Origin: Sphingobium xanthum
GTDB taxonomy: Bacteria; Pseudomonadota; Alphaproteobacteria; Sphingomonadales; Sphingomonadaceae
DNA: 64,000 nt
NCBI RefSeq assembly: GCF_019737615.1
Contig: NZ_JAHKKS010000001.1
Location: forward strand, 248,001-312,000
Direction of reading: 5' to 3'
Each line of letters starts with the position of its first letter. Position 1 is the first letter of the stretch. Below, in pieces: positions 1,543-22,400 of this stretch. Position numbers and translations under genes: made by a program. Under the pieces are notes generated by a model. The model had not been told where the DNA came from. It searched no databases and saw nothing but the letters and a program-made list of their open reading frames with translations.

Positions 1543-2484
1543 TCAGAGACCTGCGGGCGCCGCAGCGTTGTCTGCCGCCGGCGCGGCCGGAGCAGCACCA
1601 GGAGCGGGAGCCGCCGGAGCCGTGCCCGGAGCGCCGGCAGCATTGGCTGCGGCATCGCCGGCCTTGGGTTCGAAGCCGGTCTGATACTCGATCTTGGCCT
1701 TGGCCTTGGCTTCCTTGAGACGGGATTCGCCGATCTTGTTCAGCTCCTCGTTGCGCATCGCCTGGGCTGCGAGCTGGCGGGCCTGCTCGGTCGGGATCGT
1801 GACGGCTTCGCTGCCTGCGATCGAGTTGATCACGAGCTTGCCGTTGTTCGGCACGATGAAGGGCTCGCCCGGCGGCAGCGCCTTGATGCGTTCGAGCACC
1901 TGCGGCGCGACGGTCGCCGTGTCGAGCACGCCGTTGCCGCGCTGGAAGGCGATGCCCATGGCGGTCAGGCGGGTCGCGACCTCGGCCAGCGTGTGAGCGC
2001 TTTCCAGCTCCTTGAGGCGCTGCGGGTTGGTGGGCACGTCGATGACGAGCTGTTCCAGCCGCAGCCGCTGGCGCTGCGCGAAGGCATTGGGGTGAGACGA
2101 GATGTAGCGGTCGAGCATCACTGCCTCGGGGACGCGGATCGTGTCCATCGCCTTCTTGCCGTACATATTGACCAGCAACTGCTCCTGCATCCGGCGCTCC
2201 TGCGTCAGATAGGCGGGGTCGCGATCGAGCCCGGCTTCCTTGGCTGCCTGCACCAGCAGCCTGCGATCGACCATGCGCTGCAGAACGCGGCTACGCACCA
2301 GGTTCTTGTCGGCACTGGGCGGCAGGTTGAGATCGGCGATCTCGGCATTCAGCTCGGTGAGCGTGATTTCCTCGCCGTTGACGATGGCGACGACCTGACC
2401 TTCGGCCTTCTTCTGGCAGGCGGACAGGGCGAGCAGGGAAATGGACGCGAGCGCAACAAGCGAAACGCTCCTCAGCTTAGGCAT
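1543..2484 (-). CDS. EpsD-family lipoprotein peptidyl-prolyl isomerase
   Basis: 313 aa. The start ATG at 2484 has GGAGAC six bases upstream. A lipoprotein signal peptide ends in LLALSAC, so the mature protein should be lipid-anchored. The body has the SurA/EpsD-like N-terminal helical fold: an early VAIVNGEEIT segment, then VLQRMVDRRLLVQAA and RMQEQLLVNMYG. The C-terminus is a low-complexity Ala/Pro tail (about 285-313), probably disordered. EpsD-type PPIases are found in exopolysaccharide export clusters, which suits the neighbouring glycosyltransferase. No complete parvulin catalytic core was recognised with confidence, so a chaperone role is as likely as isomerase activity. Confidence 0.75.
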   Translation of the reverse strand: MPKLRSVSLVALASISLLALSACQKKAEGQVVAIVNGEEITLTELNAEIADLNLPPSADKNLVRSRVLQRMVDRRLLVQAAKEAGLDRDPAYLTQERRMQEQLLVNMYGKKAMDTIRVPEAVMLDRYISSHPNAFAQRQRLRLEQLVIDVPTNPQRLKELESAHTLAEVATRLTAMGIAFQRGNGVLDTATVAPQVLERIKALPPGEPFIVPNNGKLVINSIAGSEAVTIPTEQARQLAAQAMRNEELNKIGESRLKEAKAKAKIEYQTGFEPKAGDAAANAAGAPGTAPAAPAPGAAPAAPAADNAAAPAGL

Positions 2485-2928
2485 CAATAGTCTCCAGACA
2501 GGCGTGAAATGGATTTGAACGGATAACTTCAACAAATGCGGCGACCAATATCAGCTTCAGCGGGGAGCGCGGGTCCGTCTTGCGTGGACCTCGGCGCAAC
2601 GATGATGCGAACGCGAAACGCAAGGTCAGCACCCTTCAGCCGAATGGAACGGCGTCGATATGCATGACCTCATGTGCATGGACCTCCTCCCACCGGATCT
2701 TGTCGTTCTGAACTCATCCGGCCGGTTCATGTGGCGCCCTATTACCGCGCCGCATGCGCCGGAACAAGCCTGTCTCGCCATGTGGATCGGGCCTGTGCCG
2801 TTGCGGCACCGAATAGAAGCGTACGATTAATTTTGCGTGGAGTACGAACAGAGACACGATTTTCAATCGCGTGACTGGCGATTGACTGTCTCGTCGAGCG
2901 CATGGAGCCAGTCGAGCGCATGCATAAG
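2485..2928. other. 444-bp gap between EpsD-like gene and phage-type island
   Basis: No convincing gene on either strand. An AT-richer stretch lies around 2825-2870. An 8-bp inverted repeat, TCAATCGC/GCGATTGA with a 7-base loop, sits at 2863-2885. A 12-bp direct repeat, GTCGAGCGCATG, is at 2893-2904 and 2911-2922 (18-bp period). The gap holds the promoter of the EpsD-like gene and the downstream end of the spanin gene. A weak ORF at 2674-2874 has no ribosome site and an arbitrary composition. Confidence 0.6.
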
Positions 2929-3432
2929 TTATGGGGAGACGGGTGATCCGTCGCTGATCAACCCCTTGGCCCAGTCATGCGCGGCAGCCAGTCGCGCGCT
3001 GTTTTCGGCGCAGATCAGCGCGTCGGCTCTTGCAAGAATGAGGGTGTCCGCACCGGGTCCGTCAGCGCGCGGGGGAAGTCCGGCGCCGGGCAGAGCGGAG
3101 TGTGCGGCAATACCCTCAGCGGTCGCGCGACCGGGGAGGCGCAGGACGCGGTCACGATACAGGATAGTGGCAGTGTCAGCTTTGCGATCCGTGTCATCCT
3201 TCTGTCTCCTTTGCGCGGCGGCGAGGCGGCCGAGTTGCGCTTGCCAGTCGGCATTGGCGCGGTCCTGCGCGGCCCGGACAGTGGCGATGTCGCGCGCATG
3301 GGCGGCTGTGCTTGCGGCGAGTGCCGCTTTGGCCTTGTCCAGTCGCGTCGCTTGAATCTTCAGCGCGGCGCCCAGCATGGCGATGACGATCAGCGAGGCC
3401 AAACCGAGCTGGGGTGCGAAACGGAGGAGCAT
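2929..3432 (-). CDS. Phage i-spanin (Rz-like)
   Basis: 167 aa, last gene of the lysis cassette. It has a short N-terminus, one membrane helix (about residues 8-26, LGLASLIVIAMLGAALKIQ) and then a long Ala/Gln/Arg/Asp-rich helical periplasmic region likely to form a coiled coil (about 27-90). This is the layout of inner-membrane spanin subunits, which span the periplasm and join an outer-membrane lipoprotein to destroy the outer membrane after peptidoglycan is cut. ATG at 3432 is five bases after the lysozyme stop with AAGG in the gap. A second, lipoprotein gene is nested inside it at 3015-3197. Spanins diverge fast, so the call rests on topology and context more than on residues. Confidence 0.75.
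   Translation of the reverse strand: MLLRFAPQLGLASLIVIAMLGAALKIQATRLDKAKAALAASTAAHARDIATVRAAQDRANADWQAQLGRLAAAQRRQKDDTDRKADTATILYRDRVLRLPGRATAEGIAAHSALPGAGLPPRADGPGADTLILARADALICAENSARLAAAHDWAKGLISDGSPVSP
3015..3197 (-). CDS. Phage o-spanin lipoprotein (Rz1-like), nested in i-spanin gene
   Basis: 60 aa, read in the +1 frame entirely inside the i-spanin gene, as Rz1 lies inside Rz in lambda. The start ATG at 3197 has a strong ribosome site, AAAGGAG, eight bases upstream, which makes translation credible. A basic N-terminus (MTRIAK) and hydrophobic core lead to a lipobox-like VTASC, putting the acylated Cys at residue 19. The mature part (about 42 aa) is rich in proline (PVARPLRVLPHTPLCPAPDF), typical of o-spanins. 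It should be anchored in the outer membrane and pair with the i-spanin. Confidence 0.75.
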   Translation of the reverse strand: MTRIAKLTLPLSCIVTASCASPVARPLRVLPHTPLCPAPDFPRALTDPVRTPSFLQEPTR

Positions 3433-3437
3433 CGCCT

Positions 3438-3938
3438 TCACAGCCCGGTCAGGCACAGGGCGCGCTCGGCCTGTCGGCGACGGGTCAGCCCCGGCACGAC
3501 CCGACCACCGGCGCGGTTCCACATCAGGAATGCCTCGCATCCGCCGCGCCAGTCCCCTGCCTTGAACCGTCGCGCCACGGTCGAGCGTGCGAAAGCGGCC
3601 TTGCCGATATTGTAGCTAAGCGAGATCGAAGCGGCCAACTGATGCGGGCGATTTCGAAGTGCGGGGACGGCTGCGAGGACGGCCGGAGCATAGTCGCTCT
3701 CCAGTGCCCGCCGCAGCATCGCATCGCATTCCGCCGGTGTGTAGCGGCGCATCGCGACGCGCGTCTCGCCGGTGCAGACCGTCCAGACGCCGACGATGTC
3801 GCGATAGGGCGCTATGCGCGTTCCCTCCCATCGCTCGACCGTGGGCGTCGCGATTGCAAGGGCGAGCGCGACGAAGGCGCCGCCGCCCAGTGTGCCGCCG
3901 AGAATGCCCGCCGTCTGAGGCCCAGCTACCCGGCTCAT
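3438..3938 (-). CDS. GH24 phage lysozyme, probable SAR endolysin
   Basis: 166 aa, the size of phage 21/P22-type endolysins. Residues 10-30 are a weakly hydrophobic Gly/Ala-rich segment (GILGGTLGGGAFVALALAIA), as in signal-anchor-release endolysins, which are tethered to the membrane until it is depolarised. The catalytic triad spacing of the family, E-8aa-D-5aa-T, is exact: Glu38 in RWEGTRIAPYRD, Asp47, and Thr53 in VGVWTVCTG. It hydrolyses peptidoglycan from the periplasm. The start ATG at 3938 overlaps the stop of the holin-like gene (ATGA), so translation is coupled. Confidence is high for the lysozyme call, moderate for the SAR mechanism. Confidence 0.88.
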   Translation of the reverse strand: MSRVAGPQTAGILGGTLGGGAFVALALAIATPTVERWEGTRIAPYRDIVGVWTVCTGETRVAMRRYTPAECDAMLRRALESDYAPAVLAAVPALRNRPHQLAASISLSYNIGKAAFARSTVARRFKAGDWRGGCEAFLMWNRAGGRVVPGLTRRRQAERALCLTGL

Positions 3939-4168
3939 TTCCGGGTCTCCGGCTGATCGACGATGCGGGCGAGGCCGATCGCCAGGAACAGCGCGAGGCC
4001 GATCCATTGGCCGGCCGGCAGGGAGAGGCGCGTGTCCGGCGGGAGGGCAGTCCACGCGGCCGAGAGGCCCGCGCCGAGCGCGGACAGCCGAACGGACCAA
4101 AGGCGGTGCGCACGGCGCACGTCGGCGATCAGGCGCGCCCGGAAGCGCGTCCGCAAGTCATTCAACAT
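3935..4168 (-). CDS. Holin-like small membrane protein
   Basis: 77 aa. A basic, arginine-rich N-terminus (MLNDLRTRFRARLIADVRR) is followed by an amphipathic or weak membrane segment (about 28-44, LSALGAGLSAAWTALP) and a clearer helix (about 53-68, GQWIGLALFLAIGLARI). Its stop overlaps the lysozyme start (ATGA). Position directly before an endolysin gene, small size and topology suggest the holin or pinholin that triggers lysis. No sequence motif proves it, and it could be another phage membrane protein. Confidence 0.6.
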   Translation of the reverse strand: MLNDLRTRFRARLIADVRRAHRLWSVRLSALGAGLSAAWTALPPDTRLSLPAGQWIGLALFLAIGLARIVDQPETRK

Positions 4169-4178
4169 CTTCGATCTC

Positions 4179-4454
4179 CTATTTCTGCAGCCAGCCTTTC
4201 ATGGCGGCTATGATTCCGGCACCGGCGGCGAGAAGGCCGGTCAGCCATTTGAGAAAGCGCATCGAGCTTTTGGCGGTCGTGAAGGCTTCGACGACGTCCT
4301 TGGTCGCCCGCACACCCTGCTCGAGCTGCGCGACCCGCTCGCCCAGATGGCCAAGTTGTTCGCCATGGGCTTCGAGCGTGCCCGCGAGCGCCTCCATCTT
4401 GCCGAGCAGGTGATCGAGGCTGCGCTTTACCTCGGTGATGCTATTCGGCCTCAT
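4179..4454 (-). CDS. XhlA-like coiled-coil/TM phage protein
   Basis: 91 aa. Residues 5-60 are heptad-like and hydrophilic (LDHLLGKMEALAGTLEAHGE, then LGHLGERVAQLEQGV), followed by one C-terminal membrane helix (about 68-87, WLTGLLAAGAGIIAAMKGW). This is the layout of XhlA-type proteins that act with holins in defective phages. Its ATG overlaps the stop of the spike-fibre gene (ATGA), which places it in the same operon, and it ends ten bases before the holin-like gene. The function as a holin partner is inference from layout and position. Confidence 0.6.
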   Translation of the reverse strand: MRPNSITEVKRSLDHLLGKMEALAGTLEAHGEQLGHLGERVAQLEQGVRATKDVVEAFTTAKSSMRFLKWLTGLLAAGAGIIAAMKGWLQK

Positions 4455-6019
4455 GACGCCACCGCGTCCTGCGTATCGCCGTCGCAATGATAGAGCGCGA
4501 CCAGATCCGCTTCGGCGCCGGTGAACGGGGCTGTGGGGCAAGTGTAGCTCGTCCCGGAGTAGCGCTCGCTGTTGAATACAGCCCATTCGTCGACTGCGCC
4601 ACCGGAAGGAGCGCTGCCGCCACCCTGGTTGCGCAGGGCGAAGCGCCCGGCAATGGGCGGGACCGTCGCGATCGTTTGGGCCCCCGTCGAGTTATAGTCG
4701 CGGACACCGGCGCCGGCATCGGTGATGTTAGTCAGATAGATGGAACGGCCGCTCGGCCCGAACTGGGCGGCGACATGATAGCGCTTGCCGGCAACCAGCG
4801 TCGTCGCGCCCGTCGGCGTGCCACTGCCGGCTTTCACTTTCCCGCTCTGGTCGATGCCGACATACCAGGACGCGGTCGCGCCGAAGCCGCCGAACAGCAC
4901 CACGGCACCGGAGCCGGGGATGGTCGGGCAGGTGAAGAAGCCCTCGATGGTGACCGGCACGAAACAGGGCGTCTTGCCGGTCACCGCCAGCGCGGTGCCG
5001 CCGGTCATTTCCTGCCCGAACCCGCTGGCGCCCGCGCCATAGCTTGCGCTGGTCTCGATCATGTCGAACGGGCTGACATTGGCCACGAAGCCGCTCGGCG
5101 GTGCGTTGACGGCTCCGCCCGGCGTCGGCGCAGCGACGGCGATGGGGTCGAAGTTCGCCTGCACCTGCCGGCCGATGCCGACGGCGTCATCGTCGCGGTC
5201 GTCATAGATGTTATCGGTCGTGCCGTTCACCGGGCCATTGCCCCAGTAAAGATAGAGTTCCAGTTCGTGGCCATCGCCGGGATCGTTCGCCAGCACGATC
5301 GAGAGCGTCGTGGCATTTGGCGTGGCGACCGACGAGACAGGAAACCTGTTGTCGCTGTTGGCGGGGCGATCGACCCTGCCTTTGGCGAACACGAAGATAC
5401 GGTTGCCAGGCGTGCCGACGAGGGTCAGCGCGCTCTGGCCGACGTTCGAGAGGGTCAGTGTGATCGTCGCGCCGCTGCGTATGGCACTGAGCGGTGCCGG
5501 GCCGAGGCCATTGCTCGCGCCATAGCCGGCGCGGAAGGCACGGGCGATGTGCCGGCCCATGGTGCGCGATCCCACCTGGCTCTGGTGAATATTATCGACC
5601 TGATCGACGTCGTGCATGTGGACATAGGTGCCGCCGTTGGCGCTGCACCAGTCCCGCGCGCCCTTGCGGACGCGGTTGATCGCATAGGGCGTTCCCCAGG
5701 TGCTCGAACGGATATTGGGCACAGTCCAGACCATCCTGGCATAGCCACTGAAGCTGTTTGCGGCGGTCAGCTGACCGAACACCGCGTTGAGGCCGCTCTG
5801 ATAGGCCTTGGGCGGCAGCCCAAAAGCGCTGTCGCTATGGCCCTGCCCCCAGACGAAGCCTTCGAAGGCGCCGCCAACCCGGCTGATGAGGCTGCTCAGC
5901 TGTGTCCAGTTGCCGCTGCCGCTGAGGAACGTGTTGAGCGCGACGCCGCCTTGGCTATGCCCGAAAGCGCCGCAATTGACGCCGAGAAGAGCCGTCATCC
6001 GGTTCAGGAATTCGCCCAC
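4451..6019 (-). pseudogene. Spike/tail-fibre protein with SGNH-hydrolase-like and LamG-like domains, 3' part of a broken gene
   Basis: 522 codons from a GTG at 6019, but the same frame stays readable upstream to a TAG at 6068-6070 and the N-terminal part lies in another frame (6004-6408). Visible pieces: GVNCGAFGHSQGG, FEGFVWGQGHSDS and a late DNIHQSQ segment, which match the middle and C-terminal blocks of phage SGNH/sialate-O-acetylesterase-like proteins, with DxxH supplying the Asp/His pair. A middle beta-rich region follows, then a C-terminal LamG/concanavalin-like domain (about 330-520, with WYVGIDQSG, GKRYHVAAQF, GAVDEWAVFN). It would bind, and if intact de-acetylate, surface polysaccharide. 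The early GDS/GQS block expected in the family is not visible, so activity is doubtful. Its stop overlaps the next start. Confidence 0.7.
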
Positions 6020-6408
6020 GCCGACAGCATTGGGACCATTGCCGTTGCCGACATCGCCGGGCGTCTGCTAGGGCATGATTGCGACCGTCGGCATATAGGC
6101 CGTCGTCTCGAGGCGGCGATCCATTCGGGTTGCAGGATCGTGCTGCCGTCGTCGGATCGGATGCGGGCGCCGACCGTGCCCGCGCTGGCGCCCGTCAGGG
6201 CAATGCGAATGACGCCCTGACCCTTGCCTTGCCCGCCGCCGGTGGTGGTCGCGCGCTGATAGATGCGCTTGGCTTCATGCGCCGCGAACTGCGTCATCGT
6301 GAAGCCGGCGCTCGGCGTCGGCGAGGGGGTGGGCGTGCCGGTCATCGCCCGGTGCCGGCGCGTGCTGCCCTTGTCGCCCAAGCCATATCCGTATCCGCGG
6401 CCCGGCAT
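6004..6408 (-). pseudogene. 5' part of the broken spike-fibre gene
   Basis: The ATG at 6408 overlaps the stop of the spike-base gene (TGATG), so this is a coupled, genuine start. About 100 residues look native: MPGRGYGYGLG, a Thr/Pro/Ser linker, then a beta-rich domain (GVIRIALTG, GARIRSDDG, TILQPEWIAA). After about codon 100 the frame becomes Arg/Ser-rich and improbable, while the -1 frame continues with plausible sequence (TTAYMPTVAIMP), then meets TAG at 6068-6070 and runs into the SGNH part. At least a frameshift and a stop therefore split one ancestral gene. Sequencing error could explain one lesion but less easily both. Confidence 0.6.
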
Positions 6409-6674
6409 CAGGCGAGCCCGACGATGTCGGCCGCGGTCGTGCCCGTCGCGCGGATGTAGCGCGCGCGAACGTCGAGGATCTGGCCGGAGGCGATGTTCTT
6501 GAACACGACGTCGGCGGTCGCATCGGCCGCGCGCAGCGTGATGTTCCCGCCAGTCCCCACGAAGATCGCCTTGGGCAGCGGGTCGATCTCGTTGCTGACA
6601 TGCGGCGTGATGGCGAAGGCGTCACGCGCCGGCTGGGATAGCGAGTCGGTTTGGGTGTCGAAGCGGTCGGCCAT
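6408..6674 (-). CDS. Head-spike base protein, Rcc01079 (GhsA) family
   Basis: 88 aa. The sequence shows the family pattern: an N-terminal DSLSQPARDAFAITP segment, then FVGTGGNITLRAADA, and a C-terminal RYIRATGTTAADIVGLA. Rhodobacter capsulatus Rcc01079 is the base of the head spikes of gene transfer agent RcGTA, and with Rcc01080 it binds the capsule of recipient cells. Here it is the first gene of the island and its TGA overlaps the next ATG. A purine-rich ribosome site (GGAAAGG) lies seven to eight bases upstream. The 96-bp gap to nth contains the 13-bp palindrome noted separately. The family match is from memory of conserved motifs; GTA versus phage origin cannot be settled here. Confidence 0.75.
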   Translation of the reverse strand: MADRFDTQTDSLSQPARDAFAITPHVSNEIDPLPKAIFVGTGGNITLRAADATADVVFKNIASGQILDVRARYIRATGTTAADIVGLA

Positions 6675-6734: not shown

Positions 6735-6747
6735 GCTGTAGGACAGC
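6735..6747. promoter_or_regulatory. 13-bp palindrome upstream of spike/lysis island
   Basis: GCTGTAGGACAGC is a perfect palindrome around a 3-base centre, 60 bp before the spike-base start and next to TATGGT, a possible -10. The only other copy in the window is at 22388-22400, with TCG conserved on the same flank. The pattern fits the loose yGTM-N-KACr form of GntR (FadR/VanR) operators. The regulator is not known. Confidence 0.4.
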
Positions 6748-6770
6748 GAAATTTTACCTATTTGGAAAAT

Positions 6771-7427
6771 TTATGTCGGTGCGGGCGTTTTGTCGCGGAA
6801 CAGGCAGATGTCCTCGATCACGCAGCGCCAGCATTCGGGCTTGCGCGCCTTGCAGACATAACGGCCATGCAGGATCAGCCAGTGATGCGCATCGCGCCGG
6901 AACGGCTGAGGGACTTTCTTTTCCAGGCCTTTCTCGACGATCAGCACGTTCTTTCCCGGCGCGAGACCGGTGCGATTGCCGACGCGGAAGATATGTGTGT
7001 CGACCGCGAAGGTCTCTTCGCCGAACGCGGTGTTCATGACGACATTCGCCGTCTTGCGACCAACGCCGGGCAGTTCGGTCAGCGTATCTCGATCGCGTGG
7101 CACTTCGCCACCATGGTTCGCGACCAGCGCCTCGGAAAGCGCGATGACGTTCTTCGCCTTGGTGTTGAACAGGCCGATCGTCTTGATGTGCTGCTTCAGC
7201 GCCTCTTCACCCAAAGCGACCATCTGTTCCGGCGTCTTCACCGTCTCGAACAGCTTGCGCGTCGCCTTGTTGACGCCGACATCGGTCGCCTGAGCGGACA
7301 GGACGACCGCGACGAGCAGCTGGTAGTCGTTGCCATATTCCAGCTCGGTGCGCGGCGCCGGATTGGCTTCCGCCAGGCGCGAGAACATCTCGAAGATCTG
7401 CGGGCGGGTCAGTTGACGGCTCGCCAC
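6771..7427 (-). CDS. nth: Endonuclease III
   Basis: 218 aa, the usual length. A bifunctional DNA glycosylase/AP lyase that removes oxidised pyrimidines in base excision repair. The helix-hairpin-helix LPGVGRKTANVV carries the catalytic Lys, the catalytic Asp follows in FAVDTHIFRV, and the C-terminal iron-sulfur cluster ligands are present as C-6-C-2-C-5-C (CKARKPECWRCVIEDIC). The start at 7427 is three bases after the dapB stop, so the two form an operon. An AT-rich inverted repeat (AAATTTT/AAAATTT, 6749-6772) overlaps its stop but lacks a GC stem, so read-through into the spike/lysis island on the same strand is possible. Confidence 0.96.
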   Translation of the reverse strand: MASRQLTRPQIFEMFSRLAEANPAPRTELEYGNDYQLLVAVVLSAQATDVGVNKATRKLFETVKTPEQMVALGEEALKQHIKTIGLFNTKAKNVIALSEALVANHGGEVPRDRDTLTELPGVGRKTANVVMNTAFGEETFAVDTHIFRVGNRTGLAPGKNVLIVEKGLEKKVPQPFRRDAHHWLILHGRYVCKARKPECWRCVIEDICLFRDKTPAPT

Positions 7428-22387: not shown

Positions 22388-22400
22388 GCTGTAGGACAGC
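22388..22400. promoter_or_regulatory. Second copy of 13-bp palindrome
   Basis: GCTGTAGGACAGC, identical to the site at 6735-6747, with GA following in both (15 identical bases). It is 338 bp from the nearest downstream gene start, so it is not an obvious promoter operator here. Confidence 0.35.

Follow-up and report, generated by a model that had tools for sequence, protein, structure and literature searches.

Which system could own a set of spike and lysis genes that sits on a bacterial chromosome with no capsid gene beside it? The question is raised by a tight run of minus-strand genes at positions 2929-6674 of a 64,000-nt stretch of Sphingobium xanthum DNA (contig NZ_JAHKKS010000001.1, positions 248,001 to 312,000; hereafter 'the window'), flanked by nth (6771-7427) and an EpsD/SurA-like peptidyl-prolyl isomerase (PPIase) gene (1543-2535) (Table 1). 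A preliminary description of the window had seen seven packed, partly overlapping genes in this island, and the run was confirmed, with family-level matches for the spike base, the holin and the GH24 lysozyme; by sequence inspection, several stop and start codons overlap within it. Two origins had been proposed, an accessory locus of a gene transfer agent (GTA) or a prophage reduced to a remnant. The former gained support from a match to the head-spike base Rcc01079 of the Rhodobacter capsulatus GTA (RcGTA), from related bases inside GTA clusters, from GTA clusters in related genomes and from a shared operator-like block, whereas the latter fits poorly with the lack of matches to GTA structural queries around the islands of seven relatives and with the fixed site at nth. 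We conclude that the island very probably belongs, as an accessory locus, to a gene transfer agent of the RcGTA type and is placed after nth in one Sphingobium-type clade.

A head-spike base inside and outside GTA clusters

The island encodes a homologue of Rcc01079 (PDB 6tb9 chain; phmmer E 1.1e-8), the mark of an RcGTA-type head-spike locus. The PHROG label would make this protein an ordinary tail fibre, a reading that we rejected given that the PDB match is to a head-spike base and that the position within clusters is after the capsid. A public genome scan returned 52 loci with a base relative, and our family sample contained one in 31 of 199 genomes. In nine of the 52 loci, the base lies right after the GTA capsid gene; one of these stretches (L038) ends at the base, and the other eight hold later GTA genes. 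The order in Chakrabartia godavariana (L024) reads terminase, portal, protease, capsid, base, fibre, connector, the first three being named by sequence appearance. In 71 of 80 loci on viral contigs (the best 80 of 265), a GTA capsid gene lies upstream of the base and ends within 1.5 kb of it, and by this count IMG/VR seems to list GTA clusters as viruses (L164-L242).

At another seven of the 52 loci (L006-L011, L014) the base follows nth, as in the window, and an EpsD-like gene lies downstream in five of them, the copy in Sphingobium sp. SYK-6 (L010) standing ∼5.6 kb past the lysozyme. These nth-site bases form one clade with those of the window and of a metagenome copy, L163 (support 99/98). 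The base match at L014, from a metagenome-assembled genome (MAG), begins only at residue 21, and this copy may be damaged. Pairwise ratios of nonsynonymous to synonymous change (dN/dS), which are rough here because synonymous change was large, were 0.09-0.24 for the base (15 pairs), indicative of purifying selection, 0.12-0.38 for the lysozyme, 0.23-0.44 for the fibre, 0.28-0.61 for the small protein of the island, 0.50-0.92 for the inner-membrane spanin (whose frame overlaps another gene) and 0.08-0.12 for nth. With 7 of the 52 bases placed behind nth, and with purifying selection on the base, the island is a real locus, more than a chance arrangement.

The fibre gene mostly begins at the stop codon of the base, and the window's reading frame does likewise. 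Fibre residues 2-13 hold a hydrophobic-Gly-hydrophobic motif in 39 of 45 rows, whereas the remainder of these proteins would predict 2.9 (45 of 53 rows were counted, as five had no downstream open reading frame (ORF) and three were dropped as unrelated ORFs). The RcGTA fibre is reported to bear such an N-terminal plug (PMC7296036). The window thus retains a fibre with an N-terminal docking plug adjoining the base, though the gene is broken further on.

An operator-like block shared by island and GTA cluster

Upstream of the island base stand CCAAATAGGT and then the box CTGTCCTACA, and related blocks precede spike genes at other chromosomal sites. In the 4.06-Mb assembly, the operator-like block WACCTATTTGGNAAAW is matched perfectly at two places only, upstream of the island and upstream of the GTA remnant (C3:31342), as compared to zero exact matches of the reversed pattern. 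When the box was scored as [CT]T[GT]TCCTA[CT] and WACCTATTTGGNAAAW at up to three mismatches, loci outside GTA clusters had a box upstream of the base in 23 of 43 cases and an operator in 14 of 43, versus 0/9 and 0/9 inside clusters. A preliminary count over 24 of the 52 loci (picked sphingomonad loci outside clusters, a pick that left out motif-less loci) had given 22/24 and 14/24, and the background in 24 of these loci amounted to nine boxes in 895 kb of strand and seven operators in 443 kb. With zero to two mismatches, the operator is present at six of the seven nth-site island loci and also ahead of the GTA clusters in the window's genome, G200, G201, SYK-6, G204, L024, L025, L027 and L028, with TTGACA about ten bases after the operator in the eight cluster sites shown. 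It lies near the start of the stretch at L036, and no match was found at L021 or L033. Across six whole genomes, all five exact matches are at a GTA cluster or at the promoter of a spike gene or island.

Further matches were recorded. The related clusters L024, L025, L027 and L028 contain a second operator-like match with one or two mismatches (L024:7033, L025:7021, L027:7022, L028:7022), which in L024 sits at the start of the portal gene. Other candidate sites in the window's genome, C20 (one mismatch, inside a long frame), C7 and C18 (two mismatches each), as well as a one-mismatch site in G204 (C10), were set aside, as no clear GTA gene accompanies them. Within the window, a second CTGTCCTACA box at 22390-22399 on the minus strand lies upstream of a 636-amino acid (aa) ORF, without the operator block.

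Table 1. Features of the spike-and-lysis island and its borders (positions in the window).
Feature	Position	Strand	Basis
Head-spike base, 88 aa	6408..6674	-	Rcc01079 match, E 1.1e-8; phrog_12296, E 1.1e-17; alignment with 18 relatives
Head-spike fibre gene, broken (253-nt deletion 6112/6111; TAG 6070-6068)	4451..6408	-	Comparison with intact relatives
Small protein, coiled-coil-like body and hydrophobic C-terminus, 91 aa from internal ATG	4179..4454	-	Homologues in L006, L007, L008, L010, L014
Holin, DUF7940 / phrog_1356, 77 aa	3935..4168	-	E 1.2e-16 / 7.8e-15
GH24 lysozyme, hydrophobic N-terminus (signal-anchor type by inspection), conserved start 3938	3438..3938	-	PF00959 (Phage_lysozyme), E 1.1e-33; phrog_7, E 3.2e-48
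Inner-membrane spanin-like protein, probable start 3432	2929..3432	-	Topology; homologues in L006, L007, L008, L014
Outer-membrane spanin-like lipoprotein, nested in other frame, probable start 3197	3015..3197	-	Lipobox and nesting; homologues in L006, L007, L008, L014
nth (endonuclease III), fixed upstream neighbour	6771..7427	-	HhH-GPD, E 1.6e-21; adjoins base in 7/52 loci
EpsD/SurA-like PPIase gene, downstream neighbour	1543..2535	-	SurA_N_2, E 4.1e-8; downstream homologue in L006, L007, L010, L011, L014
Operator-like block TACCTATTTGGAAAAT (plus-strand reading), upstream of island	6755..6770	.	Exact match to WACCTATTTGGNAAAW
CTGTCCTACA box, promoter-like	6737..6746	-	Also precedes spike genes at other sites and unrelated genes

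GTA clusters, the broken fibre and the lysis cassette

The genomes that carry the island differ in the state of their GTA clusters (genes are named g1-g15). SYK-6 (G203) and G204 have terminase to g15 on one stretch, that is, complete clusters. G202 holds terminase, portal, capsid and g12 on one contig. In G201, portal to g15 share a contig, the protease being in two pieces, and the terminase is on another one. G207 (L014, MAG) holds capsid to g15, with pieces of portal and terminase on other contigs. In G200 (L007), g12 and g13 are largely missing, g9 has a break and the terminase lies ∼170 kb away, and G199 (L006, MAG) has only the terminase and pieces of portal, g6 and g15. The capsid query matched in full length in G200, G201, G202, G203, G204 and G207, along its last 70 residues only in the window's genome and not at all in G199. 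In the six relatives with a full-length match the connector follows the capsid directly, with no spikes between them.

The preliminary description had recommended searching the rest of the genome for a GTA structural cluster. Such a search succeeded in part: a terminase was found on contig C5 and a capsid stub with a complete tail module on C3, but the portal query had no match in the window's genome, whose GTA is without portal, protease and most of the capsid. On C3, 38 bp separate the end of a luxR gene from the capsid stub, at a place where G200 has ∼2.9 kb with portal, protease and capsid; the junction is internal to one contig. In three genomes, the window's, G200 and G201 (L004:7634-8341, L243:6059-6766, L247:5339-6046), the first gene behind the GTA operator is of luxR type, and the window genome's copy has autoinducer-binding and GerE domains. 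SYK-6 and G204 have a small-terminase-like gene at this place, and the terminases of the former three genomes are elsewhere. Besides, the tail module of the window's genome includes a g12-type protein (DUF2460) fused to the non-contractile tail sheath pair PF23844 and PF23845 (L004:12019-14517).

The fibre gene, which the preliminary description had taken as intact, turned out to be broken. As compared to L006, L007 and L014, it has lost 253 nt at the junction 6112/6111, which shifts the frame, and it reads TAG at 6070-6068 where these three relatives read TGG. In L006, L007, L008, L014 and the metagenome copy L163, the fibre is a single ORF of 733-839 aa; the 522-aa ORF that starts from GTG 6019 in the window is only the portion after the break. 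Because of this damage the island cannot make whole spikes in this strain; it descends from a spike-plus-exit module, and the system is disabled at both head and fibre. The break looks recent, as judged from the fibre remnant's dN/dS (0.36-0.38), which resembles that of intact fibres. The tail genes of the window's genome had a branch dN/dS of 0.19 versus 0.25 in G207 and 0.29-0.31 in G201, and no relaxed selection was seen in this comparison. A SASA-type esterase domain scored above the cut-off in the fibres of L006, L007 and L008 and below it in L014 and the window remnant, and the L010 fibre has a GDSL lipase. A structure model of the L007 fibre (mean pLDDT, a predicted local distance difference score, of 46.6) was unusable.

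As to the lysis genes, the earlier calls of a holin-like protein and a GH24 lysozyme were borne out by the DUF7940 (E 1.2e-16) and Phage_lysozyme (E 1.1e-33) matches. The neighbouring small protein had been labelled XhlA-like, a label without support, since neither it nor two relatives matched the XhlA family at E ≤ 1 and no convincing Pfam family was found; a role of this 91-aa protein in lysis is possible. The spanin calls are based on the nested frames, on what looks like an N-terminal anchor and on a lipobox, and the pair is kept in four relatives. The nested arrangement described before stands, but the window's spanin-like ORFs matched no spanin family in the family profile search. Of 38 genomes, 7 have a lysozyme of at least 69% identity to that of the island, and each of these carries the island; any match at all was obtained in 16 of 38, with S. 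sufflavum at 59% identity and G224 at 48%. DUF7940 is present in 5 of the 38 genomes and was not found in those of L007, L008, L010, L011 and L014. At one island relative, a Tlde1/YkuD-type protein takes the place of the lysozyme (L011:12507-12887). S. sufflavum has lysozyme and DUF7940 holin after nth without spikes, while its spike base is on another contig; this arrangement suggests that spike and lysis parts either came together at the nth site or parted there, with the direction going either way.

Several observations weigh against the island being a GTA accessory locus. The window's genome, G199 and G200 all have damaged GTA clusters, and the latter two keep intact-looking island ORFs nonetheless. 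The base clade was drawn from 88 columns. At up to two mismatches the operator had 28 matches in the six genomes versus 15 for the reversed pattern, so that two-mismatch sites alone mean little; the operator pattern was derived from some of the loci on which it was tested, and one island locus (L011) has no operator match. The CTGTCCTACA box also precedes unrelated genes, and we do not claim it as GTA-specific. Lastly, the preliminary description had named a patchy or decayed presence as a sign that would speak against its proposal, and this was encountered in part: the synteny comparison across sphingomonads found the nth site fixed in 7 of 52 loci, but the fibre is broken in this copy, GTA head genes are lost, and within the window's genus only two of the four genomes in the family sample have a base match, the other two having a GTA capsid. 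As a separate observation, in two genomes of this genus without a spike base the GTA capsid is followed directly by a different long ORF (L097:2618-4033, L101:2539-4032), perhaps another head decoration.

Alternatively, the island might have outgrown the GTA and now serve some other end, for instance programmed self-lysis or assistance to a different phage, its GTA link being a matter of ancestry only. The intact-looking island ORFs of G199 and G200, the lysis ORFs of the window, which are open where fibre and GTA head are not, and the spike-free holin and lysozyme after nth in S. sufflavum are all compatible with this idea. Yet the damage looks recent by the fibre remnant's dN/dS and the unrelaxed tail genes, SYK-6 and G204 have the island together with a complete GTA, and in the window's genome island and GTA remnant share the exact operator; we therefore regard this explanation as unlikely.

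Still less probable is an unrelated temperate phage stripped to receptor binding and lysis. The island's lysozyme belongs to a type that is frequent in phages (matches in 2052 of 50,697 phage records, all at less than 60% identity) and a base relative occurs in a few phages (8 of the 50,697). Besides, the island copy at L163 lies near an unrelated phage portal-like gene, named by sequence appearance; this IMG/VR 'virus' (L163:1-8258) reads as an intact island copy followed by ordinary genes and then the portal-like gene on the other strand, and is probably host flank beside an unrelated prophage. Against a prophage origin, the GTA and phage structural queries found no match around the islands of seven relatives, where adjacent phage structural genes had been named as the sign of a prophage, the nth site is fixed, the L007 fibre matched none of the phage records, the operator block is common to island and GTA cluster, and bases sit inside GTA clusters elsewhere. 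The surroundings of the window's own island had been described as free of terminase, portal, capsid, tail and integrase genes. This holds for the GTA structural queries (terminase, portal, capsid, tail), which had no homologue in the remainder of the window or in the 8 kb that precede it; phage genes were lacking among ten flanking ORFs (one of them without a family match), and these same ten, which held no integrase, are the extent of the integrase search. Finally, the luxR-type regulator first behind the GTA promoter, the complete tail module under selection after it and, on another contig, the lysis cassette preceded by an identical copy of the block would also fit a strain whose particles are tails without heads, released under quorum control (a GTA-derived tailocin), and carry no genes, a scenario that we consider very unlikely.

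A probable variation on the multilocus GTA plan

If the island is a GTA accessory locus, a single regulator would, in those relatives whose GTA is whole, act on the ACCTATTTGG block that precedes GTA cluster and island alike, and particle, spikes and the means of cell exit would be made together. By analogy to RcGTA, base pentamers on the capsid vertices may hold the fibre via its N-terminal hydrophobic/glycine plug, and the fibre, with its esterase-like domains in relatives, might bind or trim recipient exopolysaccharide. Holin, lysozyme and spanins would then open inner membrane, wall and outer membrane. In the window's strain, which lost its GTA head genes and whose fibre broke apparently recently, an intact-looking lysis cassette is left.

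In RcGTA, spikes and lysis genes are reported to be ectopic loci, with rcc00555/rcc00556 apart from the main cluster (PMC6854486, PMC13420450). The earlier remark that spikes and lysis genes in one operon would be unusual agrees with these separate loci. Like rcc01079-rcc01080 (GhsA/GhsB) of Rhodobacter capsulatus, the island has a base followed by a plug-bearing fibre away from the main cluster; in contrast to that locus, it has spike and lysis genes together in an operon, and its fibre has a different body. With rcc00555/rcc00556 (endolysin/holin), which we take to be of the GH108/PF11351 type, it shares being a GTA lysis locus detached from the cluster, but it has a GH24 lysozyme, a DUF7940 holin (in some members) and spanins. 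DEHP117 (G205) provides a detached lysis locus in which a two-mismatch operator and the island's CTGTCCTACA box stand ∼46 nt before a GH108 endolysin gene, which is followed by a PF11351 (GTA_holin_3TM) gene. Sphingomonad GTA clusters with internal spikes, such as that of Chakrabartia godavariana, have a homologous base and a fibre starting from the base's stop codon, yet there the base lies between capsid and connector, without an operator or box of its own (0/9). The GTA of Caulobacter crescentus likewise has accessory loci elsewhere, activated together (the GafYZ regulon and LypABC; PMC13236601, PMC11150451). One of these papers reports no holin-endolysin homologues for it, whereas the lysis genes of the island look classical. 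A combined spike and lysis operon was not found in the literature searched, whose reach left out most subscription papers.

In summary, spikes and lysis in one operon are a new variation on the known multilocus GTA plan. GTA parts can be combined anew, with spikes inside the cluster, alone elsewhere or beside a lysis cassette of a different type, and a common control-like block occurs outside the cluster. With this block, the sphingomonad GTA regulon might be sought in sequence data, and with it those lysis genes whose connection to a GTA would escape family searches. Besides, the island provides a test case of GTA decay, namely one clade in which the cluster is whole or damaged depending on the species, while the island persists.

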